DNA from: a virus
Length of the DNA: 46,273 nucleotides
Virus record (IMG/VR): IMGVR_UViG_3300033141_002015
Coordinates: 1 to 46,273 of that record
Strand: one strand, 5' to 3'
Shown piece after piece: positions 5,154 to 18,317 of the stretch. The notes under the pieces are model-generated. The model was not told the origin of the DNA and searched no databases. It saw nothing but the letters and a program-made list of their open reading frames with translations. Made by a program: the position numbers and the translations under genes. The stretch's first letter is position 1. Every line of letters starts with the position of its first letter.

Positions 5154-5446
5154 AGATATATCTAGATGATTTCAGGGATGCCCCGGGAGACGATTGGGTT
5201 GTATTTAGAAGCGTCCCCCCACTAATCGCTGCACTTAAAAAAAGAGACGTTACCCATATCAGTCTTGACCACGATCTCGGGAAGCCACACGAGAATGGTT
5301 ATGATGTATTGGTCTGGATAGAAACAGAGATGGCGAACGACCCCGAGTATATCCCACCCGAGATAACGATACATACAAGCAACCCATCGGCAAGGCAGAA
5401 AATGGAGGCGGGGGTTAGGTCGATAAAGAATAGGATATTGAAATGA
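5150..5446 (+). CDS. Receiver-like domain protein (cyclic-phosphate processing Receiver type)
   Basis: 98 residues. The opening KIYLDDFRDAPGDDW, the central HISLDHDLGKPHENGYDVLVWIE and the later PPEITIHTSNPSARQKME match the pattern of the stand-alone Receiver-like family predicted to process cyclic phosphates (paired acidic residues near the N-terminus, a conserved LDHDLG, a late HxxNP). This family is often found in phages and RNA-repair or defence contexts. The start is the ATG overlapping the endolysin stop; an upstream in-frame ATG would lie inside the endolysin gene. The assignment is from memory of the motif pattern, and the substrate is unknown. Confidence 0.65.
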   Translation: MKIYLDDFRDAPGDDWVVFRSVPPLIAALKKRDVTHISLDHDLGKPHENGYDVLVWIETEMANDPEYIPPEITIHTSNPSARQKMEAGVRSIKNRILK

Positions 5447-5640
5447 AAAAGAGGCCGGGTAATGCCATAACATTACAGCGCATCGTAGATATGTGGGAGA
5501 GAACAAGACAACCGAAAGATAGAATCCTGATAATTGACAGCAAGGACGGGCAATTAAAGTATGTGGATAAAGAGAGCTTTGTGCGCGTTGGCACAGTAGA
5601 AGTGGGGTACATCGATGAAGAAGAAGCCAGAGACGATTGA
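5443..5640 (+). CDS. Hypothetical small protein
   Basis: 65 residues, ATG overlapping the previous stop (ATGA). It is a mixed-charge soluble protein with a basic N-terminus and an acidic C-terminus (DEEEARDD). The middle (RILIIDSKDGQLKYVDKESFV) looks like a small beta-hairpin or SH3-like barrel. No family recognised. Its tail overlaps the start of the membrane protein at 5615 by 26 bases in another frame. Confidence 0.7.
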   Translation: MKKRPGNAITLQRIVDMWERTRQPKDRILIIDSKDGQLKYVDKESFVRVGTVEVGYIDEEEARDD

Positions 5641-6070
5641 TGATCTGGAGAAAACGGTTGATACGCCGAAAGATGTCCAGCCGATTACAACCGAGTACGA
5701 AACAACTACGATATACGATATTGACGCCGAGTACGAATGGAAGCCGGAGCTGATACCGCACAAGGCGGGCAAATGGGATCGCATCAAGATGTCTTTACTC
5801 TCCGGCTCCACGTTTGATTTCTTACGGCACTTCATTATCGGCTTTGCCGGCGTGGGTGGCACCGTGGTGGCTACTACCGGCAATCTTGCATGGGCGTGTA
5901 TCGCCGGGATCGGTGGGGGCCTCGTCGAGGGTGGCCGCAAGATATGGAGTGTCAAGACGGCACGTAAGAACGGCGGAACGAAAAACAGGGTATTGGAGGC
6001 GTTATTGAACTTAATTGTTGCTTTGATAGATGCGTGGATTAACAGGCGAAAGGAGGCGAAAGATGGTTAA
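5615..6070 (+). CDS. Holin-like membrane protein
   Basis: 151 residues. The first about 68 residues are acidic and soluble. They are followed by two hydrophobic, glycine-rich segments (FLRHFIIGFAGVGGTVVATTG and LAWACIAGIGGGLVEGG, about residues 69-106), a basic stretch (KTARKNGGTKNR), a third amphipathic or hydrophobic helix (LLNLIVALIDAWI) and a basic tail. Small multi-helix membrane proteins beside an endolysin are the usual holin candidates. Alternative: a generic phage membrane protein. The start ATGAAGAAG lies inside the previous gene. Confidence 0.6.
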   Translation: MKKKPETIDDLEKTVDTPKDVQPITTEYETTTIYDIDAEYEWKPELIPHKAGKWDRIKMSLLSGSTFDFLRHFIIGFAGVGGTVVATTGNLAWACIAGIGGGLVEGGRKIWSVKTARKNGGTKNRVLEALLNLIVALIDAWINRRKEAKDG

Positions 6071-6335
6071 GGCATCGGTATTACTGCGACTGGGCAAGGA
6101 GGCGCAAGACGTAATCCAGTCGTGGATTGACCCGGAAATGACGAAGGGTAAAATGGCCGAGGTAGAGGACCTGGCCCCCAATCTCTGGAATCTTGCCGAC
6201 GATTACCCCGAGATCAAGGAGCACGTGCGGGAGTTCATGTCCTTTGTGTTCAGTGGTGCGGGGCTGGAAAGTCTGCGTGAGTATGCGGCAAAAGACTGGG
6301 TTGAGTGGGATTTGCCGATATTTAACGAGGAGTAA
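6063..6335 (+). CDS. Hypothetical phage protein
   Basis: 90 residues. The start at 6063 is set by AAAGGAGGCGAAAG immediately upstream; it overlaps the end of the holin-like gene by 8 bases. The protein is soluble, helical and acidic, with a C-terminal aromatic patch (DWVEWDLPIF). No family recognised. It closes the lysis-block gene string before the structured gap at 6336-6549. Confidence 0.7.
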   Translation: MVKASVLLRLGKEAQDVIQSWIDPEMTKGKMAEVEDLAPNLWNLADDYPEIKEHVREFMSFVFSGAGLESLREYAAKDWVEWDLPIFNEE

Positions 6336-6344
6336 GGCTCAAGA

Positions 6345-6442
6345 GGCCTGAGCGGTCAGGCCGTGAAGGGGATGTGACGTGTAGGGGGCAGCTTGGCCGC
6401 TCATTCCTACAGATCGGGAGAGCATGAAAGCCGATTGGGAAT
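6345..6442 (+). ncRNA. Candidate bistable RNA leader
   Basis: The gap after 6335 can fold in two exclusive ways. Hairpin A: GGCCTGA (6345-6351), loop GCGG, TCAGGCC (6356-6362). Hairpin B: 6349-6361 (TGAGCGGTCAGGC) pairs with 6391-6403 (GCTTGGCCGCTCA) for 13 pairs including two G-U. A third nested stem, ATTCC/GGAAT (6403-6407/6438-6442) around ATCGG/CCGAT (6413-6417/6431-6435), would enclose the GGGAG site and ATG of the small gene at 6424. This looks like a translational switch or leader. The pairings are read directly; function is inferred. Confidence 0.45.
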
Positions 6443-6540
6443 ACGTTCACTCAGGAGGGGTTTGCCGGGATGGATGGCCCGAAGTCAATCCGGGTAGAGC
6501 ATATCTGCTCATGCTGATACGGTGGCTGTTTAAAATCTAG
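6424..6540 (+). CDS. Putative 38-residue protein
   Basis: ATG at 6424 with GGGAG three bases upstream. The product is 38 residues with a Gly/Trp-rich N-terminus and a hydrophobic end (YLLMLIRWLFKI) that could associate with the membrane. It fills most of the gap between 6335 and 6550, and its start lies within the stem-loop described at 6403-6442. It has no recognised family. It may be a real small gene or a chance frame in an RNA element. Confidence 0.4.
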   Translation: MKADWEYVHSGGVCRDGWPEVNPGRAYLLMLIRWLFKI

Positions 6541-6549
6541 GTCGGGGAA

Positions 6550-6870
6550 ATGAAAATCATCATACCTAAAAAGCTCTATCTGTTCGGAATACCGCTCACC
6601 GTCAATCGGAATGAACGCGTACTAGACGAGCAGAATAACCTCGGTGAATTCAATCCGGTTCACAGGCAGATACAGATATATAGGGGCATGAAAGTACCGG
6701 AGGAAATCTTGTTCCACGAGGTGGGTGAGGCGATAGCTACTATGCTGGAATTGAAGGGCGAAAACAATCAGGGGCTACCGCATCAGACCATCAACGGTTT
6801 CGGACTCGGTTATTACAACTTCGTTATATCGAATCCACACATTTTCAAGATGGAGCCTAACGATGAATAA
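6550..6870 (+). CDS. ImmA/IrrE-like zincin-fold protein with altered motif
   Basis: 106 residues; start after GTCGGGGAA. EEILFHEVGEAIATML (residues 51-66) occupies the place of the HExxH metallopeptidase helix of IrrE/ImmA-type phage proteins (usually HELLHAI), but the second histidine is replaced by glutamate (HEVGE). The surrounding pattern (a short beta-rich N-terminus with 'G..NP...I.I..G' before the helix) fits that fold. With this substitution, zinc binding may be altered or lost. Known relatives cut phage repressors or sit beside anti-repressors; whether this one is active is unclear. Confidence 0.5.
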   Translation: MKIIIPKKLYLFGIPLTVNRNERVLDEQNNLGEFNPVHRQIQIYRGMKVPEEILFHEVGEAIATMLELKGENNQGLPHQTINGFGLGYYNFVISNPHIFKMEPNDE

Positions 6871-7303
6871 CCCAGAGCGTATATACGAGGAGACAATTCG
6901 GCACAAGCGACACAATATTATAGACCAATGTCGCAGAAGAATGAAATTGGGTGAAATAAACTACGGCGATAGGGATGTATGCCTATCCGAGGTGAATTTT
7001 CTCGCCAGGGATATACCCAGGGATTACGAGGAGGAGACCCTCGATAGGATTAATTACGCGAAGCTGATTATAGCGGGGCGGGTATATGCGCGCTTGAAAT
7101 CGAGACCGAGAGATTTCAAAACCTGGATCTATGATGAGATTACGAGAATAGATGAAGATATGATGGAATACGTACCGCCGGAAGGCGGGGCTGATTTCGA
7201 TATAGATGCGTTTCTGTATTACTCCATATACCAAGACATTAATTCCCTAATCAATTTCAGAATGTTGCGCGATACGGAGGAGGGGGCCGCCGATGATTCC
7301 TGA
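6863..7303 (+). CDS. Hypothetical acidic phage protein
   Basis: 146 residues, ATG overlapping the preceding gene by 8 bases. It is a soluble, acidic, helical protein with many Arg/Asp/Glu/Tyr and no cysteine cluster or membrane segment. It overlaps the following membrane-protein gene by 11 bases, so it belongs to the same translationally coupled string. No family recognised. Confidence 0.7.
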   Translation: MNNPERIYEETIRHKRHNIIDQCRRRMKLGEINYGDRDVCLSEVNFLARDIPRDYEEETLDRINYAKLIIAGRVYARLKSRPRDFKTWIYDEITRIDEDMMEYVPPEGGADFDIDAFLYYSIYQDINSLINFRMLRDTEEGAADDS

Positions 7304-7535
7304 ATATATCATACAGGGCGTTATCTTGACGGGTGCCTGTATTACCTGGTGGTTCCTAACCAAGCGTGAGGTTGATAAGCGCAAATGGGGTTTTGTTGTC
7401 ATGCTCTGTACGCAGCCGTTTTGGCTTATCACGTCGTGGCGCAACGGGCAATGGGCGGTAATCATTATAACGGTCATCTATGTAGTGAGTGCGTTGAAGG
7501 GTATCAGGAGTCATTTTTGGAATGGGGGCGGGTGA
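7293..7535 (+). CDS. Small membrane protein (2-3 transmembrane helices)
   Basis: 80 residues. Hydrophobic segments are IIQGVILTGACITWWFL (about 6-22), KWGFVVMLCTQPFWLITSW (about 32-50) and WAVIIITVIYVVSALKGI (about 54-71), with basic loops between. The LCTQPFW...RNGQW pattern recurs in small phage membrane proteins that I cannot name. A second holin candidate or an inner-membrane accessory protein. Confidence 0.65.
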   Translation: MIPEYIIQGVILTGACITWWFLTKREVDKRKWGFVVMLCTQPFWLITSWRNGQWAVIIITVIYVVSALKGIRSHFWNGGG

Positions 7536-7536
7536 G

Positions 7537-7668
7537 ATGAGTATGATGCTAATCGGGAGGCGCTTGATTTGTCTTCCCCACGCGCGGGCATCTCTTGTCT
7601 CCGGCCGAACCCGCCCCATAGCCTTGTCTGCCAAGTGGGGAAGTTGGTCACTGAGCCGTTGTGACTAA
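7537..7668 (+). CDS. Doubtful 43-residue reading frame in an RNA-like gap
   Basis: An ATG one base after the previous stop opens a 43-codon frame (basic, Ser/Arg/Leu-rich, no family). It lacks a clear ribosome site beyond GGGTGAG. The same stretch contains strong inverted repeats (see 7573-7668), so the frame may be incidental. The gap 7536-7717 holds nothing else that I can support as coding. Confidence 0.25.
   Translation: MSMMLIGRRLICLPHARASLVSGRTRPIALSAKWGSWSLSRCD
7573..7668 (+). ncRNA. Candidate structured RNA with two adjoining stems
   Basis: CTTCCCCAC (7573-7581) pairs perfectly with GTGGGGAAG (7635-7643). The next base begins a second hairpin, TTGGTCAC (7644-7651) with GTGACTAA (7661-7668), eight pairs with one G-U and a 9-base loop. 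Inside the first stem, GCGGG and CCCGC can form a further helix. Two coaxially placed stems in an intergenic region suggest a cis-acting leader or small RNA upstream of the phosphoesterase gene. Only the complementarity is directly observed. Confidence 0.4.
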
Positions 7669-7717
7669 GATACGATGATGTCGAGAATGGTCGGGGAGGT
7701 TAGGGGGGTAGCGTTAG

Positions 7718-8470
7718 ATGAAAACGGTTGAAACATGGATGGCAATACCAGACGTACACATCCCATTCCACAACGCGGTGGCTCTACGCGCTACCGAGAA
7801 GCTAATGTCAGACCTGCAACCGGACGGCATTGTCTACATGGGGGACATGGGCGATTACAAAGTCATAAAAGAGGTATGGGAGGGGAACAAGGCATATTCG
7901 GAGGTTCACTATACAAGTATTATCGAGGATCACGCGGCCGTAAGCGAGATGCTTGAAAGACACAAGGGACTTTGCGGCTCAAAGGTAAAGAGAATATTCC
8001 TGGAGGGTAATCACGAGGAACGGATACGCCGGTTTATCTGCCAGGTGCCAATGGCCGATCGTTCAAACCTTCTATTAGAGGAATTCCTTCAATTCAAAAG
8101 ACGGAACATCCAATTTTACCCGCTGAATATCCCCGCACAGCTAGGCAAGCTCTATCTGCTACACGGTGTATACCACGGCAAGTATCATAGCAACCAGCAC
8201 GTAACAGCCTATCACCGGAATGTCATGTACGGGCATACGCATGACAGACAAATCTATACGGAGATAACCCCGATAGACGTAGAGGACGTACATACCGGGC
8301 AGTCCATAGGATGCCTTTGCGACAAGAACCCCGAATATATGAGAAACAGGCCGAATCGGTGGGTACATGGATTCAGCGTGATATATGTGCATAAGAACGG
8401 CTCCTTTAACGATCATTTCGTAAAGATCACACGGGGCAAGTTCATGTTCGGCGGAAAGGTATATGGATGA
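7718..8470 (+). CDS. Calcineurin-like metallophosphoesterase
   Basis: 250 residues with all metal-binding blocks of the family: DxH at D12/H14 (IPDVHIP), GD at D43 (MGDMGDY), GNHE at 97-100, a histidine in LLHG (H149) and GHTH at 172-175. Such enzymes hydrolyse phosphomono- or diesters with two metal ions. In phages they are often encoded near nucleic-acid modification genes and may act on nucleotides or DNA ends. Length is typical of a single-domain protein. It overlaps the next gene group closely. The substrate cannot be read from sequence. Confidence 0.88.
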   Translation: MKTVETWMAIPDVHIPFHNAVALRATEKLMSDLQPDGIVYMGDMGDYKVIKEVWEGNKAYSEVHYTSIIEDHAAVSEMLERHKGLCGSKVKRIFLEGNHEERIRRFICQVPMADRSNLLLEEFLQFKRRNIQFYPLNIPAQLGKLYLLHGVYHGKYHSNQHVTAYHRNVMYGHTHDRQIYTEITPIDVEDVHTGQSIGCLCDKNPEYMRNRPNRWVHGFSVIYVHKNGSFNDHFVKITRGKFMFGGKVYG

Positions 8471-8485
8471 GGGGAACGGTGTGAT

Positions 8486-8683
8486 ATGGCGGGTAGAGTT
8501 ACAGTCCCAAAAGAGAAGCTCTGGAGAGCCATCAAAGCGTATTGCTTACAATGCAGTGGTGATAGCCGAAGGGAGCGCGAAATGTGCCCCGTCGAATCCT
8601 GCCCACTGCACCCCTATAGAAATGGCCGCATTGGTAAAAACTCGCGTAACGTTACGCAACCTACGCAAGAAAACCCTGAATAG
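8486..8683 (+). CDS. Small cysteine-rich (zinc-knuckle) phage protein
   Basis: 65 residues with CLQCSGDSRREREMCPVESCPLHPYR: four cysteines spaced CxxC...C....C, followed by LHPYR. This is a widespread short phage protein with a predicted zinc knuckle and no assigned role. It runs in a different frame from the extended reading frame of the methyltransferase, which argues for the shorter methyltransferase start. The gene starts 15 bases after the phosphoesterase stop. Confidence 0.8.
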   Translation: MAGRVTVPKEKLWRAIKAYCLQCSGDSRREREMCPVESCPLHPYRNGRIGKNSRNVTQPTQENPE

Positions 8684-8714
8684 GTATCAGAGTACTCTGG
8701 AGGTGGGGAAGCAC

Positions 8715-9365
8715 ATGGCAACACTGAAACTGCTTGATCTCTTCTGTGGAGCAGGCGGAGCAGCGATGGGATATTATCGTGCTGGGTTTCATGATATAAC
8801 AGGGGTTGATATTGTTCAACAGCCGCGCTATCCGTTCAAGTTCATTCAGGGAGATGCGCTCGAGTTCGACCTGGCCGGATTCGACGTTATACATGCGAGC
8901 CCACCGTGCCAGAGGTTCAGTGCCGCTTCGGCTGCTAACAGGAAAACGGGTAAACAATATAAGGACCTATTGACCCCAACGCGCAAGAAATTGAAAGATC
9001 ACGGGGGGTGCTGGGTGATAGAGAACGTCGTGGGCGCTCCAATGGAGCGGCATTTAATATTGTGCGGCCTGATGTTCGGCCTAAAGGTATTCAGGCATCG
9101 ATACTTCGAATCCTCGCACATCCTACTTCAGCCGGATCATCCGTCACACCGAGGTAAGCGCATCGGTGAAGGTTACTACTCGATCGCCGGGGGAGCTGGT
9201 AGGTGGAAATCCTGGGGGAAAATATATGATCATTCAAGAGGGACAAGGAATGAATGGCGTGCGGCGATGGGGATAGATTGGATGACCCGGAAGGAACTCA
9301 CACAAGCGATCCCGCCGGCATACACGGAATTTATCGGGCGGCAACTGATCGGGCAGGTGAGATAG
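8715..9365 (+). CDS. DNA (cytosine-5-) methyltransferase
   Basis: 216 residues. Motif I is LLDLFCGAGGAAMGY (residues 6-20, SAM binding). Motif IV is ASPPCQRFS with catalytic C65. Motif VI is ENV at 103-105. A late PPAYTEFIG matches motif X of compact phage enzymes. It is about two thirds of the length of a restriction-modification MTase, so the target-recognition domain is short. It likely modifies phage DNA to block host restriction. The start at 8715 follows GGAGGTGGGGAAGCAC. The frame extends back to 8463, but that part overlaps the Cys-rich gene and lacks similarity. No cognate restriction enzyme is present. Confidence 0.88.
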   Translation: MATLKLLDLFCGAGGAAMGYYRAGFHDITGVDIVQQPRYPFKFIQGDALEFDLAGFDVIHASPPCQRFSAASAANRKTGKQYKDLLTPTRKKLKDHGGCWVIENVVGAPMERHLILCGLMFGLKVFRHRYFESSHILLQPDHPSHRGKRIGEGYYSIAGGAGRWKSWGKIYDHSRGTRNEWRAAMGIDWMTRKELTQAIPPAYTEFIGRQLIGQVR

Positions 9366-9414
9366 ACGCCAAAACTCCTATAATAAGGAAAGCAAGTTTT
9401 GAGCCGTTATTTTC

Positions 9415-9625
9415 TTTAGTCCATTTTTAGTCCAGTCATTTTGCCGTTGAGGGTCATGTATGCCGTGAATGACGTATGCCAACCGTTGTATTTATTGTAG
9501 TTACGTTATTGGCAATGGGTTAGAAAAAGCGTAATTGGCGTCGGCCCCGCCATTCACACATGCAGAAATACCCACCCCGCAATAAGTTACGAGGTGGGTA
9601 TTTTCATTAGTCCCTGTTTAGTCCA
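9415..9625. other. attP: Putative attP region with integrase arm-type repeats
   Basis: Two pairs of direct repeats frame this gap. TTTAGTCCA occurs at 9415-9423 and 9426-9434, and ATTAGTCCC/TTTAGTCCA at 9606-9614 and 9617-9625. Within each pair the spacing is 11 bp, one helical turn, and all four share an orientation. This is the pattern of arm-type sites bound by a tyrosine integrase on either side of the core. Between them are two GTATGCC copies and a GC-rich TGGCG...CGCCA dyad (about 9535-9552), one of which may mark the core. The integrase gene is 1.5 kb away on the same lysogeny segment. Confidence 0.6.
9566..9603. terminator. Bidirectional rho-independent terminator
   Basis: AAATACCCACC (9566-9576) pairs with GGTGGGTATTT (9593-9603), an 11-bp perfect stem with a 16-base loop, and TTTT follows on the plus strand. 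It sits between the converging methyltransferase (plus) and RHH (minus) genes, so it can end both transcripts. Confidence 0.75.
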
Positions 9626-9760
9626 TCAATTTCGGGCCAGGTAATTCTCTATCGCCTCCCTAATGATCTCGGCTATCGATACCCTCCGCTTGAAGGCCAA
9701 CTTGCGTAGCTTATTGTAGAGAGGCTCGGTGAGGTCGAATGTGAATATGTGCTTACTCAC
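9626..9760 (-). CDS. Ribbon-helix-helix DNA-binding protein (44 aa)
   Basis: 44 residues, CopG/Arc-like: a short beta strand (HIFTFDLT), helix one (PLYNKLRKLAFKR), turn (VSIAE) and helix two (IIREAIENYLARN). These proteins dimerise and bind operators through the strand, and act as repressors or antitoxins. The GTG start overlaps the upstream repeat-gene stop (GTGA), so the two are translationally coupled. The RHH gene at 23684-23854 also follows a repeat-protein gene, suggesting a repeated gene pair. Its stop abuts the attP arm repeats. Confidence 0.75.
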   Translation of the reverse strand: MSKHIFTFDLTEPLYNKLRKLAFKRRVSIAEIIREAIENYLARN

Positions 9761-10608
9761 CTACTAACACCCCCAATCTCCTTTATGCGGTGCGCCACCC
9801 AACGGCGCGTGAGCGCGTTTGGCTCTTCAGCCGGCGTGAGCAGATGATCGAGTCGATCTACCGGAATGCGTTTCGCCACACATATACGTACCATCACATC
9901 CGGCTCTTCATCGGGTGTGAGTAGGTGGTCAAGGTTTTCCGCGTGGATACGTGCCGCTATACACCGGCGCACGTATTCGCTCGGTTCCTCATCGGGTGTA
10001 GGTAGACGGCTGATGCGTTCTGTTGGGATGCGTTCCACTATACGGCAGCGTATGCCCATACCTGGCTCTTCGTCCAGGGTGGGTATGTGATCGATCCTCT
10101 CTGGCGGGATACGGAACGCCACCCACCAACGCACTCCCGCATCCGGCTCCTCGCCGGGTGTGAGTAGGTGGTCTATGCGTTCTGGTGAAATGCGGAATGC
10201 CACCCAACGGCGCATCTTCACACTTGGCTCCTCGTCGGATTTAAGAAGGTGATCAATCATCCCCGCGGGGATATGTCTCGTTACCCACCAGCGCACGTCC
10301 GCATCCGGTTCCTCGTCCGGTGTGGGTATTGCCGTGATCTCACGAACCGTTAGCAAGCGATTGGTCTTCGATTTTTCGCCCTCGATGCGTACAACCTCAC
10401 CTGCGGGCTCGACCTCCAGTAAGTGGCCATTCCTTGGTGTGGGTGGCATATAATCACTGGGGCTTTCCGCGTAATGCAGCCCACCACCGCAGACGGGCTC
10501 GGGGTTCCAATCGGGGCACTCGGTGACCTCGCCTATGCGGTAGACAACATCCTGGCGTGCATTCAGATGCGGCTCCGTCCAGTTGGCCGATACGACTTTG
10601 AGGTTCAT
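9757..10608 (-). CDS. DUF7666-like domain plus seven 27-residue solenoid repeats
   Basis: 283 residues. The N-terminal domain (1-95: KVVSANWTEP...YRIGEV...CGGGLHYAE...HLLEVEPAGEVVRIEGEKSK) resembles DUF7666, which in other phages caps long degenerate repeats. Then come seven units of 27 residues with consensus LLTPDEEPDAxVRWWVAxRIPxERIDH. The regular VR..VA..IP pattern is like HEAT or leucine-rich-repeat-variant units and predicts a helical superhelix. It is one of six paralogues in this genome and carries the most repeats. The start at 10608 is set by GAGGGGGTAAGAAA, the same context as the copy at 24559. Function unknown; probably protein binding. Confidence 0.75.
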   Translation of the reverse strand: MNLKVVSANWTEPHLNARQDVVYRIGEVTECPDWNPEPVCGGGLHYAESPSDYMPPTPRNGHLLEVEPAGEVVRIEGEKSKTNRLLTVREITAIPTPDEEPDADVRWWVTRHIPAGMIDHLLKSDEEPSVKMRRWVAFRISPERIDHLLTPGEEPDAGVRWWVAFRIPPERIDHIPTLDEEPGMGIRCRIVERIPTERISRLPTPDEEPSEYVRRCIAARIHAENLDHLLTPDEEPDVMVRICVAKRIPVDRLDHLLTPAEEPNALTRRWVAHRIKEIGGVSR

Positions 10609-10658
10609 TTTCTTACCCCCTCGTGTGTTGGCAGGTGATCGAGCTTTTCCGGATTCAT
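10605..10658 (-). CDS. 17-codon mini-ORF, remnant of the 27-residue repeat
   Basis: AAAAGGAGGTATGCC precedes an ATG for MNPEKLDHLPTHEGVRK, whose TGA overlaps the repeat-protein start (ATGA). PEKLDHLPTxEx.VRK matches the end of one repeat and the start of the next (PERIDHLPTPDEEPDVR). It therefore looks like a decayed end of a former repeat gene that now acts as a coupled leader peptide. The strong ribosome site suggests it is translated. Confidence 0.5.
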   Translation of the reverse strand: MNPEKLDHLPTHEGVRK

Positions 10659-10672
10659 GGCATACCTCCTTT

Positions 10673-11005
10673 TCAGTCATTATCAATCCTTAATGATTCA
10701 AGCATGGCGTGGAAATTCTTCTCAATTTCCGCCCCCTTCCTCCAACGACGCTGCCATGCTGCCAGGCTGAATTTTTTCGTGCGCTCTGCCAGGGGGCGTT
10801 CTAGCCATTTATCGCGCAACGCTTCACACTCCTCAAGCGTTGGCTTGTGTGTGTGGAATAGATTGCCCTTTGAGTCACAGTACCAGTAGTCATAGATCAT
10901 ACATAACGGCCCCTGAACATAGGAGTATTGCTCGTCATCGAAATCGGTTAATTCAGGACGATCTACTCCGTTCCTGAATAATGGCTTATATGTATGTTTA
11001 TCCAT
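10673..11005 (-). CDS. Hypothetical phage protein
   Basis: 110 residues, first gene of the leftward operon 11005-9626, under the promoter at 11036-11064. ATG 11005 is chosen because GAGGGG lies 9 bases upstream; a GTG nine bases earlier overlaps that site. The protein is soluble, with an aromatic N-terminal half (YVQGPLCMIYDYWYCDSKGNLF) and a basic helical C-terminal half. No family recognised. Confidence 0.65.
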   Translation of the reverse strand: MDKHTYKPLFRNGVDRPELTDFDDEQYSYVQGPLCMIYDYWYCDSKGNLFHTHKPTLEECEALRDKWLERPLAERTKKFSLAAWQRRWRKGAEIEKNFHAMLESLRIDND

Positions 11006-11035
11006 CGCTTCCACCCCCTCTCATGTTACAATATA

Positions 11036-11064
11036 TATATAGCACAATAGCATTATATTGTCAA
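11036..11064 (-). promoter_or_regulatory. Sigma70-type promoter, leftward
   Basis: On the minus strand, TTGACA (11064-11059), a 17-bp spacer and TATATA (11041-11036) stand about 30 bp before the start of the gene at 11005. The surrounding DNA is strongly AT-rich. It should drive 10673-11005, the repeat protein and the RHH gene. Confidence 0.7.
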
Positions 11065-11098
11065 GTATTTTTTTAACTATTTTATATCTGATTATATA

Positions 11099-12103
11099 TC
11101 AAGAGGTAAGGCGGGATAATTCTTGCTCTACCAGCTCAAGTGCCGACCGTTCCTTTGTTTCGGTCGAGTGCATGTAGCGTTGTGTCGTGGTGAGTTTGGT
11201 GTGTCCCAGTATCTGGCGGGTGGTCTCCAGGTCTATCTGATTACGGCCTAGTATATCCGTTATCGTGTGCCGGAGATCGTGGAACCTCCAGTGCTTGACC
11301 CCTTTCATTTTCTGCCGCTCATAGATAAACCTCTGTATCAGTTGTCTGGCTGTTTGTTTGAAAGCGACCCCGCCGTTTTCCAGAAACCTTCTGCGTAGAA
11401 TGGATGCGGCAAAATCAGACAGGTAAAATCTTTTCGGTACACCCGCCTTGCGGTCGGGTATATCTACCGTGCCCTGTATGAAGTTCGTATTATCCTGTGT
11501 GATCTTGCATAGTTCCCCGATGCGCAATCCGCCCATTGCCAGGCATAGCAGGATGGCATCTCGGTGGAGCGGCGTTGCCTGTTTCAGAATCACCTTCAAT
11601 TCATCGTGGCTCACAATGCGATTGATTTTCGGTCTAGCCTTGGGGATCTTGATTTCCGGCAGTCTATTCAGGAAATTCCAGCGCACGGCTTTATTGAGTA
11701 TCGCTTTCAAATAGATTGATTCCTGACGGGGCAAGGCCGCAAGATCTATCTCTAGGGCGGTGAGCTGCGAGATACGCATATTACCGAAATGTTCTAATAG
11801 CCGTTTGGTGATAGATTGAAGGCGGGTTAAGTTCGGAAGCCCCGTATACATTCTCTGCTTACAGTAGTCGCTGATATAGAGTTTAACCAGTTTATCGAAT
11901 CTTATGTCTTGCGGGATATTCTCTCCGAATCCTTCAAGGCGTTTCGAGTGGCGGTATTCTCGGAGCAATTCCTTGGCCTCGGTGATCGTATCGCCCGCCT
12001 TACGCCACGTACGACTACCCGCTATGGTAGGCCGGATATAATAGGATATAGTGCCGTCCTTGTGTGTGTAGGAGTAGATGCCCTTGTATTTGGTCTTTTT
12101 CAT
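11099..12103 (-). CDS. int: Tyrosine recombinase / phage integrase
   Basis: 334 residues. The N-terminal part (1-55) is an arm-binding-type domain, followed by a core-binding SAM-like domain (about 65-150) and the catalytic domain. The catalytic residues are R194 (GGLRIGEL), H275 and R278 (HDLRH), H301 (LGHTKLTTTQRY) and nucleophile Y310. Length and layout are typical of temperate phage integrases. Its start overlaps the repressor stop (ATGA), so repressor and integrase form one operon in lysogens. The likely attP lies 1.5 kb downstream at 9415-9625. Confidence 0.95.
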   Translation of the reverse strand: MKKTKYKGIYSYTHKDGTISYYIRPTIAGSRTWRKAGDTITEAKELLREYRHSKRLEGFGENIPQDIRFDKLVKLYISDYCKQRMYTGLPNLTRLQSITKRLLEHFGNMRISQLTALEIDLAALPRQESIYLKAILNKAVRWNFLNRLPEIKIPKARPKINRIVSHDELKVILKQATPLHRDAILLCLAMGGLRIGELCKITQDNTNFIQGTVDIPDRKAGVPKRFYLSDFAASILRRRFLENGGVAFKQTARQLIQRFIYERQKMKGVKHWRFHDLRHTITDILGRNQIDLETTRQILGHTKLTTTQRYMHSTETKERSALELVEQELSRLTS

Positions 12104-12385: not shown

Positions 12386-12426
12386 TACTTTTATTTGCAA
12401 TTCTTTAAATGAGCAAAATTTTTTAC

Positions 12427-12456
12427 TTGACAAAAATATCATTATAGTGATATAGT
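12427..12456 (+). promoter_or_regulatory. Rightward early promoter
   Basis: TTGACA (12427-12432), an 18-bp spacer and TATAGT (12451-12456) precede the Cro-like gene by about 25 bases. The spacer is filled by the 18-bp palindrome, so repressor binding would block polymerase directly. It is the counterpart of the lambda PR position and should drive the early genes from 12482 rightwards. Confidence 0.75.
12436..12453. promoter_or_regulatory. 18-bp operator, copy 1
   Basis: ATATCATTATAGTGATAT has dyad symmetry at 8 of 9 position pairs and lies between -35 and -10 of the early promoter. The near-identical site at 4699-4716 differs at two positions, and each copy fills in the other's asymmetry to give ATATCACTATAGTGATAT. 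Likely bound by the XRE repressor and/or the Cro-like protein. Confidence 0.75.
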
Positions 12457-12481: not shown

Positions 12482-12682
12482 ATGGGGCACAAAAACAACA
12501 GAATCAGGGAGTTACGAGAGGCAAGGCACCTTACGGTTGATGAGCTTGCCGAAAGAGCGCGGCTAACAGTCAAGGAAATCAATAGGCTAGAAAGCGCAAA
12601 GCCGCAAAACATCATGATTAACGAGGCCGTAAAGATCGCCCATGCCTTGGATGTTGGAATCAGGGAGCTGATGTATGAGTGA
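12482..12682 (+). CDS. Cro-like XRE HTH protein
   Basis: 66 residues, one HTH_3 domain: IRELREARHLTVDELAERARLTVKEINRLE, then a helical end. It is the first gene of the rightward early transcript, after GGGGGT. Opposite orientation to the repressor and small size fit a Cro role (repressing the repressor promoter). It overlaps the next gene by 8 bases. Confidence 0.8.
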   Translation: MGHKNNRIRELREARHLTVDELAERARLTVKEINRLESAKPQNIMINEAVKIAHALDVGIRELMYE

Positions 12683-12890
12683 GCGCCATTATACGCCGCG
12701 CCAGGCCGCTGAATTATTCGGATGCGCCGAGAGGACATGGAGAGCACTTGCGGACGAATACGGTGCGGTCAAGCTCGGTCGAAAATGGCTAATTCCTGAT
12801 AGTTTGATACGACGAATACTCGATGATCACCGGAAGCAACCCACACCTCGCGCCCGACGCAGGGCCTTAATGAAAAAACTAGAAAGGTAG
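12675..12890 (+). CDS. Excisionase/MerR-type winged helix (HTH_17) protein
   Basis: 71 residues. YTPRQAAELFGCAERTWRALADEYGAVKLGRKWLIPDSLI is the standard excisionase-family helix-turn-helix and wing (x.P.QAAE.FG...RT...L...G....GRKW.IP...L). A very basic C-terminal tail (RARRRALMKK) follows. It may be the phage excisionase (directionality factor), or a generic early regulator. It overlaps the cro-like gene, so the two are co-translated. There is no homology to lambda Xis that can be claimed. Confidence 0.65.
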   Translation: MSERHYTPRQAAELFGCAERTWRALADEYGAVKLGRKWLIPDSLIRRILDDHRKQPTPRARRRALMKKLER

Positions 12891-12894
12891 TGGT

Positions 12895-13093
12895 GGATTC
12901 CATTGTATAGACATAACACGCTGGCCCTACCGATTTAACCTTCGGGCATCCGGCGGGTCGGCGGATGAGAGAGCCTGGCGTGTGCGAGCATAGACGCGCT
13001 ATGCATTGTTACCGGCTGGGTGCAACCATTAGAAACCGTTGGCCGAGGTTAAAATCGGCTGTGAGCTAGCCAGCCACACGCCAGAAGGAATCC
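12895..13093 (+). ncRNA. Candidate structured (pseudoknotted) RNA
   Basis: The gap after 12890 has no convincing gene but many exact complementarities. Closing stem: GGATTCC/GGAATCC (12895-12901/13087-13093). Then GCTGGC/GCCAGC (12920-12925/13069-13074), and CCGATTTAACC with GGTTAAAATCGG (12930-12940/13047-13058, one bulged A). Local hairpins: CATCCG/CGGATG (12947-12952/12962-12967) and GCATAG/CTATGC (12988-12993/12999-13004). CTGGCGTGTG/CACACGCCAG (12975-12984/13075-13084) crosses the long stem, so it is a pseudoknot or an alternative state. This nested architecture suggests a functional early-transcript RNA. It matches no family I know. Confidence 0.5.
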
Positions 13094-13147
13094 TGGCACC
13101 CCTGCTACCCACCTAACTCCCTTGAACCCACTCAAGCGGGGGTGCCA
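13094..13147 (+). promoter_or_regulatory. Stem-loop in the leader of the second repeat gene
   Basis: TGGCACCCC (13094-13102) pairs perfectly with GGGGTGCCA (13139-13147). Inside the loop, CTTGA/TCAAG (13121-13125/13132-13136) forms a second stem. The element starts one base after the structured RNA and ends 11 bases before the GGAGGAG of the repeat gene. No U-run follows, so it is not a simple terminator; a processing site or translational element is more likely. Confidence 0.45.
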
Positions 13148-13166
13148 AATGAATCACGGAGGAGTA

Positions 13167-13841
13167 ATGAAACTCAAGGTCGTCACATCTGACTGGACGG
13201 GCGTGCATGAAGACGCACGCCAGGACGTAGTCTACCGTATAGGCGAGATCACGGAGGCCCCCGACTGGGATCCCGAACCCGAATGCGGTGGCGGGCTATA
13301 CTATGCGGAGGGATTGTGGGACTACCTGCCTGAGACGCCGGAGGGCGGGCACCTGCTGGAGATCGAGCCCGTAGGTGAGGTCGTGCGCGTTGAGAACAAC
13401 CAATCGAAGACCAATCGTCTGCGTGTAATACGTGAGATCACGGCAGTACCCACACCCGACGAAGAGCCGGATGCGGGCATGCGCCGGTTGGTGGCGGGAT
13501 GTATCCCCGCGAAGCGGCTCGACCACCTACTCACACCCGACGAGGAGCCGGATGCGACCGTGCGCTGGCACGTAGCGTCACGCATCCCCGCGGATAGGAT
13601 CGATCGCTTGCCTACATCGGATGAGGAGCCGGATGAATACGTGCATTGGTGTTTGGCGGAACGCATTCCGGTAGATCGACTCGATCATCTACTCACCCCT
13701 AACGAGGAGCCGGATGCGGACATACGCCTGTCGGTGGCGGCACGCATCCCCACGGATCGGCTTGACCACATACCCACACCCGCCGAGGAACCGGATGCGG
13801 ATGTACGCCGAATGGTGGAGAAACGGTTGAAGGAAAAATGA
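13167..13841 (+). CDS. DUF7666-like domain plus five 27-residue repeats
   Basis: 224 residues. The N-terminal domain of about 95 residues (MKLKVVTSDWTGVHEDARQ...GGGLYYAEG...HLLEIEPVGEVVRVENNQ) is nearly the same as in the paralogues. Four full repeats and one shortened repeat follow, ending in RRMVEKRLKEK. The acidic DEEPD turn begins every unit. The start is set by CGGAGGAGTA. An in-frame ATG 18 bases earlier overlaps the ribosome site. It overlaps the next gene (ATGA). First gene after the structured RNA on the early transcript. Target unknown. Confidence 0.75.
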   Translation: MKLKVVTSDWTGVHEDARQDVVYRIGEITEAPDWDPEPECGGGLYYAEGLWDYLPETPEGGHLLEIEPVGEVVRVENNQSKTNRLRVIREITAVPTPDEEPDAGMRRLVAGCIPAKRLDHLLTPDEEPDATVRWHVASRIPADRIDRLPTSDEEPDEYVHWCLAERIPVDRLDHLLTPNEEPDADIRLSVAARIPTDRLDHIPTPAEEPDADVRRMVEKRLKEK

Positions 13842-14194
13842 ACAAGCTCCAAAAAGAGGCAATCGCAACACTGTTCTGTGAGTGGTTCAGGATGCGTACC
13901 ATCGTTCAAGATGTATGCGACGAATTAGATTACGTGAATTGCAGACCCATAGCCCTTTGCGAACATCGAAAATTCCACCCATATACACAAGACGAGGGTA
14001 CCGACGGTATATTCGATGATGATAGATGCCCGATGATTACAACCGTCATGTATGGTGAATATAGCACATACGAGGAGCGGCTTGAATATTACTCGTGGGC
14101 GAAGGATAACTGTAATTATTGGCATCATTATTTCGAGCAGTTTCTTAACGATCTAATTGAAGACCTGGAGGGTGAGCTATGCGTGAAGGAGTAA
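13838..14194 (+). CDS. Hypothetical acidic cysteine-containing protein
   Basis: 118 residues, ATG overlapping the repeat-gene stop. It is rich in Asp/Glu/Tyr/Trp with scattered cysteines (C14, C26, C35, C41 and others) but no clear zinc motif. The C-terminal half (EERLEYYSWAKDNCNYWHHYFEQFLNDLIEDLE) is helical. No family recognised. It lies between two repeat-protein genes. Confidence 0.65.
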   Translation: MNKLQKEAIATLFCEWFRMRTIVQDVCDELDYVNCRPIALCEHRKFHPYTQDEGTDGIFDDDRCPMITTVMYGEYSTYEERLEYYSWAKDNCNYWHHYFEQFLNDLIEDLEGELCVKE

Positions 14195-14265
14195 TTGTAG
14201 CGATAGGTTTGGTAATCCTCTGCATCTTTGTAGTCATGTGGGGGCTGAAAGGCGGCAAAACATGA
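14179..14265 (+). CDS. 28-residue single-pass membrane protein
   Basis: ATG after GGAGGGTGAGCT. The product is almost entirely one membrane helix (VIVAIGLVILCIFVVMWGL) with a GGKT tail. It overlaps the previous gene by 16 bases and the next start by 4 (ATGA). One of at least four tiny membrane proteins between 14179 and 15319. Confidence 0.6.
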   Translation: MREGVIVAIGLVILCIFVVMWGLKGGKT

Positions 14266-14789
14266 GAAACAAGAGTGCAGATTCGGGACGATTCGATCAT
14301 CTACTGACGCCGGCGGAGGAGCCGAACGTTTATATGCGTCGTCAGTATGCCGCACTTATCGATCCGGATAAAATCGAGCACCTACTCAAACCATCCGAGG
14401 AACCGGATGCGAAAGTGCGTTGGTGGGTGGCATTCCGTATCCCGCCAGAGAGGTTAGATCATCTGCTGACGCCAGAGGAGGAGCCGGATGCGAAAGTGCG
14501 TTGGTGGGTGGCGTCACGCATACCCGCGGAACGGATCGATCACCTGCCCACAGCAGACGAGGAGCCGGATGTATACGTGCGCTGGCATGTGGTGCGCCGC
14601 ATACCCGCGGAACGGATCGATCACCTGCCCACAGCAGACGAGGAGCCGGATGAATACGTGCGCTGGCTCGTTGCGGCACGCATTCCCGTTGAACGCATCG
14701 ATCATCTGCCCACATCAGACGAGGAGCCGGAGGAGGAGATACGCGATTTAGTGGCGATACTTATTCGCGGGATGGAGCAAGGGAGATGA
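14262..14789 (+). CDS. Repeat-only paralogue: six 27-residue solenoid repeats, no cap domain
   Basis: 175 residues. A short leader (MRNKSADSGRFDH) is followed directly by six repeat units, without the DUF7666-like domain found in the other five copies. Units 3 to 5 are close to the consensus (LPTADEEPDxYVRWxVxxRIPAERIDH), and two neighbouring units are nearly identical in DNA, a sign of recent 81-bp unit duplication. The ATG overlaps the small membrane-protein stop. It may rely on another paralogue for its missing domain or be a minimal binding solenoid. Confidence 0.75.
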   Translation: MRNKSADSGRFDHLLTPAEEPNVYMRRQYAALIDPDKIEHLLKPSEEPDAKVRWWVAFRIPPERLDHLLTPEEEPDAKVRWWVASRIPAERIDHLPTADEEPDVYVRWHVVRRIPAERIDHLPTADEEPDEYVRWLVAARIPVERIDHLPTSDEEPEEEIRDLVAILIRGMEQGR

Positions 14790-14790
14790 C

Positions 14791-14886
14791 ATGAACCGCG
14801 AGCGTCTATTTATAGCGTTTATCAGGATTTCGATTCTAGCGTTCTGCATCTATTATTGGTACTGGATATTCAGGCTGGTTTTCTAG
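14791..14886 (+). CDS. 31-residue membrane protein
   Basis: ATG follows GGGAGATGAC. The peptide has a basic start (MNRERL) and one long hydrophobic, Tyr/Trp-rich segment (FIAFIRISILAFCIYYWYW) ending IFRLVF. The next gene's ribosome site (GGAGGAGG) begins at its stop. No family recognised. Confidence 0.55.
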   Translation: MNRERLFIAFIRISILAFCIYYWYWIFRLVF

Positions 14887-14898
14887 GAGGAGGTGAAA

Positions 14899-15258
14899 AT
14901 GACCTGGCAATTAGTGTATTGGATTACGAGATTTGATGCTATTAATGTGTTCGCTATTGTATCTGTTGTGCTTGGTGGTATAAGTGGGCTTTTTTGTTTT
15001 ATGCACTGTTCTATTGAAGAGGAAATGCATAACTTGGGCAGGTGGTTGCGTATCCCAATAACTATATTGCTCATTGGGATACTTCTCTTTCTGTTCATTC
15101 CTTCCACCAAAGAAGCATGCGCTATCTATCTCATACCGAAAATCATCAATAACGAGCAGGTACAGCATGTGCCCGAGAAAGCTCTGCGCCTGCTCAACGC
15201 GAAATTCGATGAGTGGATAGATGAGCAGATGGGGGACGACAATGCGAAACAAGATTGA
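14899..15258 (+). CDS. Two-helix membrane protein
   Basis: 119 residues, ATG 14899 after a strong TAGGAGGAGGTGAAA. It has an aromatic N-terminus (MTWQLVYWITRFDAI) and a first membrane helix (FAIVSVVLGGISGLFCFM). After a charged cytoplasmic loop, a second helix (IPITILLIGILLFLFIP) precedes a soluble tail. The opening and two-helix spacing are common in a family of small phage membrane proteins without known function. It overlaps the following 25-codon gene. Confidence 0.7.
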   Translation: MTWQLVYWITRFDAINVFAIVSVVLGGISGLFCFMHCSIEEEMHNLGRWLRIPITILLIGILLFLFIPSTKEACAIYLIPKIINNEQVQHVPEKALRLLNAKFDEWIDEQMGDDNAKQD

Positions 15259-15319
15259 GTGGATATTCCTGATACTTGCTTCGCTCTACCTAATAGGGCG
15301 TTATGTCTTTTCCATCTGA
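15242..15319 (+). CDS. 25-residue membrane peptide
   Basis: ATG within the end of the preceding gene opens MRNKIEWIF followed by LILASLYLIGRYVFSI, one membrane helix. Only GGGGGAC stands upstream as a ribosome site. Together with 14179, 14791 and 14899 it forms a cluster of very small hydrophobic genes. Confidence 0.45.
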   Translation: MRNKIEWIFLILASLYLIGRYVFSI

Positions 15320-15332
15320 AGCGAGGTGCTAT

Positions 15333-16718
15333 ATGTTGCTTAAAAAGGCGGAAAACGAGACGGCTTTTCTATCTGCTGCGATTTACGGTTTCGCCGGCAG
15401 TGGTAAGAGTTTCACCGGCGCATGCATCGCAATCGGTTTACACCATCACATCAAATCAAAGGGGCCGGTGGTTTATATCGACACCGAGGCGGGATCGGAT
15501 TTCCTCTTGCCGCACTACCGGCACAACGGCATAGAGGTCATGCGTTCAAATAGCAGGGCGTTCCGTGACGTTCTGCCGACGATGCAAGAGGCGAAAAATG
15601 CCGGAGCGGAAATCATGGTCATCGACTCTTGCACGCATCTGTGGAAAGAACTGTGCAATGCATACGAGAAGAAATACAAGCGCACGAGCGGATTACAATT
15701 TCAGGATTGGAAGAACGTCAAGGGCGAATGGGGCGAGTTTATGACCGCCGTACTAAACGAGCCGTTACACATAATCCTGCTGGGGCGCGCGGGTTATGCA
15801 TATGACTATATCGATATTGACGGCAAGAAAACACTCATCAAAACCAATACCAAGATGCGGGCCGAGGGCGAGACGGAACATGAGCCATCTATAACGCTCG
15901 AAATGGAACAGATAACCCTCTCCGACGATGAGATAAAGGATCTGGCGCGCAAGCAGGCTAAGGGGTTTGGTACGAAAGTTACGGGGCAATTTTCCAGCTA
16001 TGTAATGTATGTGCTGAAAGACAGGGCGAATCTACTCACCGGTTCAGTGTTCAAATACCCGCCCCAGCCAGGTAAATTGATCGAGCCGAATAACCCTCCC
16101 TTCACAGACATACTTCCATTCATACAGACCATCAACGTCGGTGGCAAGCATGTGGGCGTGGATAATACCAGAACGAGCGAGGACATGTTCGTCGGTGCAG
16201 ATAATAGCTATACCGAACGGAGAAAGACGAAAACCATCATATTAGAGGAACTGAAAGCGGAATTAGATACGCATTTCGGGTCATCACAGAAGGATAGGGC
16301 AGCCAGGATCGCACTCTTAAAAAAGCATTTCGGCACAGCTTCTAGCACTAAGATTGAGGGGCTGGATATTGAACGGCTAAGGCTCGGCTACGATAAGATT
16401 TGGGTCGAGCTTAACCCGCAACGAGAGGAGGTAAAAAAGGTAAGAACCCCCGTACATGTTTCGGGGGAAAAAGACAGCGGGGGGGAGGGTACCGCCCGTT
16501 CGCGGGCCCATCACCCAGACCCTTCCCCCCCAATTAAAGAAGCAGAGGCAATCTACAATAATCACAAACATACAAAGAAGGACGTAGAGCGCGTCGCGGA
16601 TATGCTCGGATACAATCTGAATGAAGACCCGGCGAACATACGGGGCAATATGGACAATGAAGAATGGAAAGTCGCCATAGCCGGCATTATTGGGTACTAC
16701 AAGTTGAGGGAGTTATAG
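15333..16718 (+). CDS. RecA/AAA-type ATPase (phage recombination or replication)
   Basis: 461 residues. Walker A is GFAGSGKS at 19-26 and a Walker B-like IMVIDS has D98. The N-terminal 230 residues are an AAA_24/Sak4-like P-loop domain, as in phage ATP-binding proteins that act with annealases or load helicases. A conserved C-terminal segment (about 284-365, KAELDTHFGSSQKDRAARIALLKKHF...) is also found, duplicated, in the next gene. A Gly/Pro-rich linker and a final helical domain follow. ATG 15333 is chosen because GCGAGGTG precedes it. The linker DNA (16447-16531) holds stable inverted repeats. Confidence 0.75.
   Translation: MLLKKAENETAFLSAAIYGFAGSGKSFTGACIAIGLHHHIKSKGPVVYIDTEAGSDFLLPHYRHNGIEVMRSNSRAFRDVLPTMQEAKNAGAEIMVIDSCTHLWKELCNAYEKKYKRTSGLQFQDWKNVKGEWGEFMTAVLNEPLHIILLGRAGYAYDYIDIDGKKTLIKTNTKMRAEGETEHEPSITLEMEQITLSDDEIKDLARKQAKGFGTKVTGQFSSYVMYVLKDRANLLTGSVFKYPPQPGKLIEPNNPPFTDILPFIQTINVGGKHVGVDNTRTSEDMFVGADNSYTERRKTKTIILEELKAELDTHFGSSQKDRAARIALLKKHFGTASSTKIEGLDIERLRLGYDKIWVELNPQREEVKKVRTPVHVSGEKDSGGEGTARSRAHHPDPSPPIKEAEAIYNNHKHTKKDVERVADMLGYNLNEDPANIRGNMDNEEWKVAIAGIIGYYKLREL
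16182..16428 (+). repeat. 247-bp duplicated segment, donor copy in the ATPase gene
   Basis: This stretch of the ATPase gene recurs at 17469-17715 with the same length, no gaps and roughly two dozen base differences by eye (about 90% identity). Most changes are silent, so both copies appear to be kept under protein-level selection. Confidence 0.9.
16447..16531 (+). repeat. Inverted-repeat cluster inside the ATPase gene
   Basis: CCCCCG/CGGGGG (16447-16452/16462-16467) is followed by a long arm, GGGGGGGAGGGT (16479-16490) pairing with ACCCTTCCCCCCC (16519-16531, one bulge). The latter encloses GCCCG-TTCG-CGGGC (16494-16507). The encoded peptide is a low-complexity Gly/Ser/Pro linker, so the DNA or RNA structure may be what matters, or it is an inserted palindromic element that kept frame. 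Confidence 0.6.
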
Positions 16719-16721
16719 AAA

Positions 16722-17720
16722 ATGAACCTCAAAGTAGTATCAGCCAATTGGACGGGAGTGCATGAAGATGCACGCCAGGATGTTGTGTACAAGGTGGGTG
16801 AGATCACAGAGGCACCCGACTGGGATCCCGAGCCCAAATGCGGTGGCGGGCTGCACTACGCAGCGAACTCGTTGGACTACCTGCCCGAGACGCCGGAGGG
16901 CGGCCACCTGTTGGAGGTCGAGCCCGTAGGTGAGGTCGTGCGTGTCGAGGGCGAAAAATCGAAGACCAACCGCTTGCGTGTAATACGTGAGATCACGGCA
17001 GTACCTACACCTGAAGAGGAGTCGAGTGCGGCAGTGCGCTATTGGGTGGCGAAACGCATCCCCGCGGAGCGGATCGATCACATACCCACACCGGACGAGG
17101 AGCCAAATGAAGATGTGCGTTGGTGGATGGCGCAACACATCCCTGCGGAACGGATCGATCACTTACCTACGCCTGATGAGGAACCGGATGCGAAGGTGCG
17201 CTATCGGGTGGCGTCACGCATTCCCGCAAAGCATATCAATCATCTACTGACTCCATGGGAGGAGCCGGATGAAGGTGTGCGCCGTTGTGTGGCAAGGCGC
17301 ATTCCCGTTGAGCGGCTCGACCATCTATCCACACCTGCCGAAGAGCCCGCTGTGGGGGTGCGTTGGTGGGTAGCAGAACGCATATCTACAGAGCGCATCG
17401 ACCATCTACTCACCCCTGAAGAGGAACCGGATGCGGATATACGCCGAATGGTGGAGAAGCGGTTGAAGGATATGTTCGTCGGTGTAGATGGTAGCTATAC
17501 CGAACGGAGAAAGACGAAAACCATCATATTGGAGGGATTGAAAGCGGAACTAGATACGCATTTCGGGTCGTCACAGAAGGATAGGGCGGCCAGGATCGCA
17601 CTCTTAAAAAAGCATTTCGGTACGGCTTCTAGTACAAAGATAGAAGGGCTGGACATTGATCAACTAAGGCTCGGCTACGATAAGATTTGGGTCGAGCTTA
17701 ACCCCCTGAGAGAGGTATAG
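16722..17720 (+). CDS. Chimera: DUF7666-like domain, six repeats and captured ATPase C-terminal segment
   Basis: 332 residues in three parts. The DUF7666-like domain is 1 to about 95. Six 27-residue repeats (96 to about 249) end RRMVEKRLKD. Residues 250-332 (MFVGVDGSYTERRKTKTIILEGLKAELD...) are an 83-residue copy of the ATPase C-terminal segment from the gene just upstream. The junction replaces the usual KEK end of the family. The start follows GAGGGAGTTATAGAAA, 3 bases after the ATPase stop; the next paralogue has the same TATAGAAAATGAACC context, a likely recombination site. The shared segment may let it interact with ATPase partners. Confidence 0.8.
   Translation: MNLKVVSANWTGVHEDARQDVVYKVGEITEAPDWDPEPKCGGGLHYAANSLDYLPETPEGGHLLEVEPVGEVVRVEGEKSKTNRLRVIREITAVPTPEEESSAAVRYWVAKRIPAERIDHIPTPDEEPNEDVRWWMAQHIPAERIDHLPTPDEEPDAKVRYRVASRIPAKHINHLLTPWEEPDEGVRRCVARRIPVERLDHLSTPAEEPAVGVRWWVAERISTERIDHLLTPEEEPDADIRRMVEKRLKDMFVGVDGSYTERRKTKTIILEGLKAELDTHFGSSQKDRAARIALLKKHFGTASSTKIEGLDIDQLRLGYDKIWVELNPLREV
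17469..17715 (+). repeat. 247-bp duplicated segment, recipient copy
   Basis: Second copy of 16182-16428, fused in frame to the end of a repeat-protein gene. The duplication together with the paralogous repeat genes makes 16182-18317 a tandem array of homologous blocks prone to recombination. Confidence 0.9.
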
Positions 17721-17723
17721 AAA

Positions 17724-18317
17724 ATGAACCTGAAAGTCGTATCGGCCAACTGGACGGAGCCGCATCTGGATGCACGCCAGGATGTAGTCTACCGGGTAGG
17801 CGAGGTCGCCGAGTGTCCCGACTGGGATCCCGAACCCGAATGCGGCGGCGGGCTGCATTACGCAGCGACTTCGTTGGACTACCTGCCCGAGACGCCGGAG
17901 GGTGGTCACCTGCTGGAGGTCGAGCCCGTAGGTGAGGTCGTGCGCGTTGAGAACAACCAATCGAAGACCAATCGCCTACGCGTAATACGTGAGATCACGG
18001 CAGTACCCACACCCGACGAGGAGTCGAGTGCGGCAGTGCGCTGGTACGTGGCGGGATGTATCCCCGCGAAGAGGCTCGACCACCTACTCACACCCGATGA
18101 GGAGCCGGACGCGAGTGTGCGCTGGTACGTGGCGGCACGCATCCCCATAGAGAGGATCGATCACTTGCACACACCCGACGAGGAGCCGGATGCTACCGTG
18201 CGTTGGAAGGTGGCGGAACGTATACCCGCAAAGCGGATTGATCATTTGCTGACTCCAGAGGAGGAGCCGGATGAAGATGTGCGCCAAGTGATAGAAGAAC
18301 GCTTGAAGGAAAAATAA
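17724..18317 (+). CDS. DUF7666-like domain plus four 27-residue repeats
   Basis: 197 residues: cap domain (1 to about 95) with CGGGLHYAATSLDYLPETPEGGHLLEVEPVGEVVRV, then three full repeats and one shortened repeat ending IEERLKEK. The DNA of the cap domain is nearly identical over long runs to those at 13167 and 16722. It starts 3 bases after the chimera stop, preceded by GAGAGAGGTATAGAAA. Shortest capped member apart from 23951-24559. Confidence 0.75.
   Translation: MNLKVVSANWTEPHLDARQDVVYRVGEVAECPDWDPEPECGGGLHYAATSLDYLPETPEGGHLLEVEPVGEVVRVENNQSKTNRLRVIREITAVPTPDEESSAAVRWYVAGCIPAKRLDHLLTPDEEPDASVRWYVAARIPIERIDHLHTPDEEPDATVRWKVAERIPAKRIDHLLTPEEEPDEDVRQVIEERLKEK

Follow-up and report, generated by a model that had tools for sequence, protein, structure and literature searches.

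In phage lambda, the nutR site sits just past cro, and in the ColE1 system, RNA I and RNA II form kissing hairpins on two antisense RNAs. Protein-free RNAs that control the early transcription of phages are rarely recognised from sequence. In HK022, putR lies ~270 nt after the PR start, and the put RNAs are described as ~70-nt molecules of two stem-loops that bind directly to polymerase, without requiring a protein (PMC9378689). Among ornate RNAs, ROOL, GOLLD and OLE are described with contacts that include kissing loops, and ROOL and GOLLD are phage-borne (PMC12286853). Thousands of candidate structured RNAs have been reported from human microbiomes, 28 of them mostly near integrase, sortase or phage domains (PMC8040213). 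AlpA of Pseudomonas is presented as a small DNA-binding antiterminator from a phage-like locus, which allows polymerase to read through terminators (PMC7969949).

Here we analysed a virus record of 46,273 bases (the window), in which an earlier note had picked out positions 12891-13147 for their pairings. The unusual pairing and folding of this element are real, and it is best read as a candidate structured, non-coding, orphan RNA. Our favoured reading, to which we give a rough probability of 0.45, is that of a cis-acting nascent-RNA or leader element of the early rightward transcript.

Genomic setting

The window encodes a P22-like portal and large terminase subunit and also carries an integrase gene. 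In the early region, a divergent repressor/Cro-like pair flanks a strong predicted promoter that a palindrome overlaps, and the element lies ~430 nt downstream of this promoter, past cro and before most of the early genes:

12427..12456, + strand: predicted early (PR-type) promoter, TTGACA-18-TATAGT, 11/12 in a consensus scan (predicted only)
12436-12453: operator-like palindrome ATATCANNATANTGATAT over the early promoter, 0 mismatches
12482-12682: Cro-like gene, overlapping the excisionase-like gene
12675..12890, + strand: excisionase-like small helix-turn-helix gene, directly 5' of the element
13167..13841, + strand: first solenoid gene, its ATG at 13167 set from six aligned N-termini of paralogues

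The excisionase-like protein matched Pfam HTH_17 (E 1.7e-5, slightly below the cut-off) and a PHROG excisionase (E 3.6e-5), while Pfam and PHROG searches with the first solenoid gene returned nothing above the cut-off. The 276-nt gap between the end of the excisionase-like gene (12890) and the first solenoid ATG (13167) is atypical of the operon, since the remaining spacings among the nine genes taken for 12482-18317 run only from -8 to 103 nt. The reading frames of this gap lack a credible Pfam or PHROGs family match, in agreement with the earlier description of a stretch without a good gene. A decayed gene was rejected as well: the six stop-to-stop pieces reached at best E 0.087 (PHROGs) and 0.013 (Pfam), below the cut-off and in implausible families.

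The palindrome ATATCANNATANTGATAT was found again at 4699-4716 with one mismatch, and positions 6882-6920 of G001, the nearest phage relative (portal 99% identical), match window 12417-12456 at 88%; these matches may mark a second operator site for the same repressor. The solenoid genes form a family of at least five paralogues in the window (9757-10686, 13167-13841, 16722-17720, 17724-18317 and 23951-24559), which have a common N-terminal domain of ~90 residues, 68-85% identical to that of the first, and vary in repeat content.

Predicted structure

The predicted fold has the following parts, with pair probabilities given for the element alone and in an 845-nt context:

12895..12901, + strand: 5' strand of stem A, GGATTCC, which closes the core (probability 1.0 alone, 0.87 in 845 nt)
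13087..13093, + strand: 3' strand of stem A, GGAATCC, a perfect 7-bp pair with 12895-12901
12919..12963, + strand: arm B, a 9-bp stem (12919-12927/12955-12963) with hairpin 1 (0.84 alone, 0.75 in 845 nt)
12930..12945, + strand: hairpin 1 of the fold, CCGA-UUUAACCU-UCGG, loop 12934-12941
12975..13084, + strand: arm C, stem 12975-12983/13076-13084 (0.85 alone, 0.76 in 845 nt)
12984..13009, + strand: branch hairpin of arm C, GCATAG/CTATGC (0.86-0.92 alone)
13041..13060, + strand: hairpin 2 of the fold, GGCCGA-GGUUAAAA-UCGGCU
13094..13147, + strand: 3' hairpin, 13-bp stem and C-rich loop, no U run behind

All the inverted pairs that the earlier note had named were found. Among them, 12975-12984/13075-13084 in arm C is indeed an exact and perfect 10-bp pair, and the stem-loop that was said to follow the pairs is the 3' hairpin, whose 9-bp perfect outer stem extends to 13 bp if one G-U is counted. 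Arm C forks into the branch hairpin and a longer arm, which carries an 11-nt bulge (13030-13040) and then hairpin 2 at its tip. The Shine-Dalgarno sequence of the first solenoid gene lies 11 nt downstream of the 3' hairpin. In the 845-nt fold, which runs from near the promoter onward, the major helices have pair probabilities of at least 0.70 and the minor ones 0.45-0.65.

Folding strength and controls

Compared with shuffled controls, the element folds better than its composition would predict. At -104.5 kcal/mol, the element was better than all of 200 dinucleotide shuffles (0/200 as good; mean -88.1, z -3.43) and than 2995 of 3000 in a larger run, being matched or beaten in 5/3000. The reverse strand was near ordinary (z -1.11, equalled by 28/200 shuffles). 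The core (12895-13093) reached z -3.14 on the plus strand (1/300 shuffles) and -1.82 on the minus strand, and the 3' hairpin (13094-13147) -4.68 (0/300 shuffles) and -2.31, respectively. Arm C (12975-13084) was nearly equal on both strands (z -2.82 and -2.76), and this weakens the strand argument for this arm. The assertion that such a density of pairs is unlikely by chance stood for long pairs only: the three exact inverted pairs of at least 8 nt (mean 0.33) were reached in 0/150 dinucleotide shuffles, whereas the 11 pairs of at least 6 nt (against 6.4) were reached in 11/150 and are unremarkable.

These controls bear on the possibility of an ordinary spacer that folds well by chance and was chosen for its pairings. 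When the window was tiled at the same length on both strands (16 shuffles per tile), the element ranked second of 362 tiles by energy deficit, behind the tile at 34696 and with those at 11566, 23645 and 33925 close to it, so that energy alone would not single it out genome-wide. The single-region p-values are also optimistic because the place was picked for its pairings, and the lack of a homologue fits a spacer too. However, the energy (5/3000) and the loop match described below (1/3000) are each rare in shuffles, as are three pairs of at least 8 nt, and the gap is unusually long for a packed operon; chance is an unlikely account of the element.

Elsewhere in the window, the tile 23645-23901 on the minus strand folds far better than its shuffles (-70.0 vs -54.4), and a sister record (L256) is rearranged around window 23253-23683.

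A proposed contact between two hairpin loops

A 19-nt long pair, 12930-12948/13040-13058, is 79% complementary and exact over the 8 nt of 12934-12941/13046-13053, and it crosses the 10-bp pair of arm C. The earlier note had this 10-bp pair crossing an unnamed main stem, by which the long pair was probably meant; that crossing exists at the level of sequence, but within the nested fold the 10-bp pair crosses nothing.

Hairpins 1 and 2 have a CCGA/UCGG stem in common and loops of 8 nt each, and the loops are complementary over 7 consecutive Watson-Crick nt (12934-12940 with 13047-13053). A loop-loop match of at least 7 occurred in 1/3000 shuffles and in 4/1500 random windows of the genome, two of these being the element itself and two a single further locus, covered by windows starting at 27682 and 27707 and with loops of 12 and 14 nt. 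The pseudoknot is best interpreted as kissing between the two local hairpins of the element, a model more economical than the long duplex: forcing the duplex (11 pairs, one-base bulge) gave -100.5 kcal/mol, against -104.5 for the nested fold, where leaving both loops open carries no penalty. On its own, the loop helix contributes ~-5.0 to -6.9 kcal/mol, with the entropic cost of the kiss not counted. We thus propose, from these models, a tertiary loop-loop contact between hairpins 1 and 2. Counting 21 pairs outward on arm C and 6 in return, loop 2 would sit ~15 pairs, and loop 1 13 pairs, away from the junction, and the bulge 13030-13040 could act as a hinge.

Comparison with RNA classes and search for relatives

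At gathering score, the Rfam 15 covariance models had no match in the window. Relaxing the limit to E 10 brought up just two families, both below the cut-off: sR33 (E 0.067), which lies outside the element, and a lncRNA (E 5.7). This upholds the earlier view that no named RNA class fits. ROOL, GOLLD and OLE were rejected for the same lack of an Rfam match. ARAGORN detected no tRNA or tmRNA gene in the window, ruling out that reading, and an attachment site derived from a tRNA 3' end was set aside, the T-arm pattern being at chance level with none near the integrase. The 3' hairpin does not look like an intrinsic terminator: its stem is followed by AAATGAATCA, with no U run, and no terminator-like site was called. 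A pseudoknot sequestering the Shine-Dalgarno sequence would have only 5 nt (13116-13120 with 13161-13165), too short in the C-rich loop.

Searching phage and plasmid records by blastn gave no match at E up to 1, and the integrase and portal searches found a relative only in record 3300033150_000765. G001 spans roughly window 23167-46273 and 1-11584, its ends lying in the integrase gene and near 23167; it says nothing on the element because its contig stops short of the place on both sides. In viral contigs, the excisionase-like protein gave 56 pattern stretches and no relative. The hairpin-1 pattern gave 25 stretches, where the GGTTAAA partner within the next 200 nt occurred only in the window's own copy, and two further patterns gave at least 119 and 58 stretches; among the matches listed, the three exact-pattern scans of viral contigs yielded chance matches only. 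Over 254 loci, including the pattern stretches listed, nhmmer and blastn gave best non-self E values of 0.45 and 0.025, the match at 0.025 centring on the typed pattern itself. A search with the solenoid-domain alignment returned 43 viral and 2 genome loci, all distant matches save L002, from a sister phage.

We also built a covariance model, R1, whose input was a single sequence supplied in duplicate. R1 recovered only itself from the window and 50 loci, and against 100 and 63 further loci its best E values were 0.16 and 0.11, nothing credible (these locus searches leave out L158-L196, L001 and L003-L005). No match was found in 16 whole records. Among 398 genomes from the phylum of G011, three matches at E up to 0.01 are about the chance number, and 288 genomes from the phylum of G012 gave none at E up to 0.001, both phyla being arbitrary choices. 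These blanks are weak evidence, since a single-sequence model reaches near relatives only and the two phyla need not include the host.

Two side observations concern the sister phages. L002 has intergenic runs of the CCTTGCC/CCGCC/GAGCC type, ~80 bases each, at about 1888-1972, 2847-2928 and 3599-3680. At the junction 34749/34750 (34690-35068; L255), ~116 bases of G001 are missing from the window, the flanks of the two being 95-98% identical; the cause is either a real deletion or an assembly collapse. A small gene starting at 34690 meets a stop soon after this junction, and its second half stays open, though in a different frame.

Possible function of the element

As a cis-acting part of the early transcript, the element, which is on the strand presumed to be transcribed, would be read from the predicted promoter at 12427-12456, and the RNA would fold while polymerase leaves the cro and excisionase genes. 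It would form a closed core, two arms with kissing terminal loops and then a strong hairpin before the ribosome-binding site of the solenoid gene. So folded, it may act in cis on the rest of the early operon, by way of polymerase, transcript processing or ribosome entry. The fold energy, the strand bias of the whole fold, the loop complementarity and the non-coding gap are computed, and a regulatory role is suggested, by analogy, from position alone.

This reading is favoured by the shuffle results, the weaker other strand, the stable helices in 845 nt, the matching loops, the three pairs of at least 8 nt, the unusual 276-nt gap and the putR-like position after the promoter. Against it, we count the missing homologue and hence covariation, the second place among the tiles with several close behind, and an arm C whose minus strand folds just as stably. 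Terminator-like sites downstream are not in excess (12 vs 9.3 in shuffles), an excess that would have argued for antitermination. The first solenoid start codon is free in the predicted fold, part of the Shine-Dalgarno region pairing locally, so that a ribosome-occlusion or translation switch is not evident; both points count against the reading as well.

The closed domain, its matching ends (stem A) and the strong 3' hairpin would also suit a separate trans-acting small RNA, cut from the early transcript or made apart from it and possibly self-associating by its loops. A two-strand fold at -221.1 is 12.1 kcal/mol lower than 2 x -104.5, a gain common for self-complementary sequences and here uncontrolled. 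With neither a promoter-like site just upstream nor a terminator-like site downstream, and with the comparable phage and bacterial RNAs ROOL, GOLLD and OLE being larger and widespread, we hold a trans-acting RNA to be improbable, if worth keeping in mind.

The palindromes could also mimic RNA structure in a DNA element, either sites bound by the excisionase-like or the Cro-like protein or another recombination or replication site. The near-palindrome CCGANNNNNNNNTCGG occurs in two oppositely oriented copies and nowhere else in the window (0.89 copies expected), the excisionase-like gene adjoins, and the stability of arm C hardly differs between the strands. Set against these points are the strand bias of the whole fold, the different sequence of the operator-like palindrome at the promoter and the absence of a tRNA-type attachment core near the integrase, and we judge a DNA element quite improbable. 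A self-cleaving or otherwise catalytic RNA, as the earlier note had allowed, is hardly credible, as only compactness and the crossing interaction speak for it, no Rfam ribozyme family appeared at E up to 10 and no catalytic motif was recognised, leaving no evidence for catalysis.

Returning to the cis-acting reading, an element acting on polymerase or the early operon would be a new RNA regulator where lambdoid phages hold their nut and put sites, and one compact enough to be tested directly in reporters; a trans-acting element would extend the short list of ornate RNAs known to be encoded by phages. A whole new phage RNA class of ~200-260 nt with a 7-bp kiss-locked core, acting early on host polymerase or self-associating, is a bolder and rather unlikely proposal. 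As an orphan without covariation, the element is for now a candidate only, and its novelty is tempered by the human microbiome candidates described near integrase and phage domains.

Comparison with known systems

Like HK022 put as described, the element would be a stem-loop structure of nascent RNA downstream of an early promoter, here ~430 nt from a predicted one. It differs from the described put RNAs in its ~200-257 nt, closing stem, two arms and proposed loop-loop contact, and its size and form, set beside ~70 nt and two stem-loops, place it apart from them. GOLLD is often >800 nt, so the element is smaller, and its proposed kiss would lie within one chain. As in ColE1 RNA I/RNA II, two hairpins have complementary 7-nt loop stretches, but those of the element are on one RNA, 106 nt apart. 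The excisionase-like neighbour resembles AlpA in being a small protein of DNA-binding type in a phage-like locus, a reminder that it might itself be the regulator; AlpA, however, is described as working via a site at the promoter rather than via a structured RNA. By analogy, the element is best read as sited like the lambdoid nutR and putR, yet outside those families.
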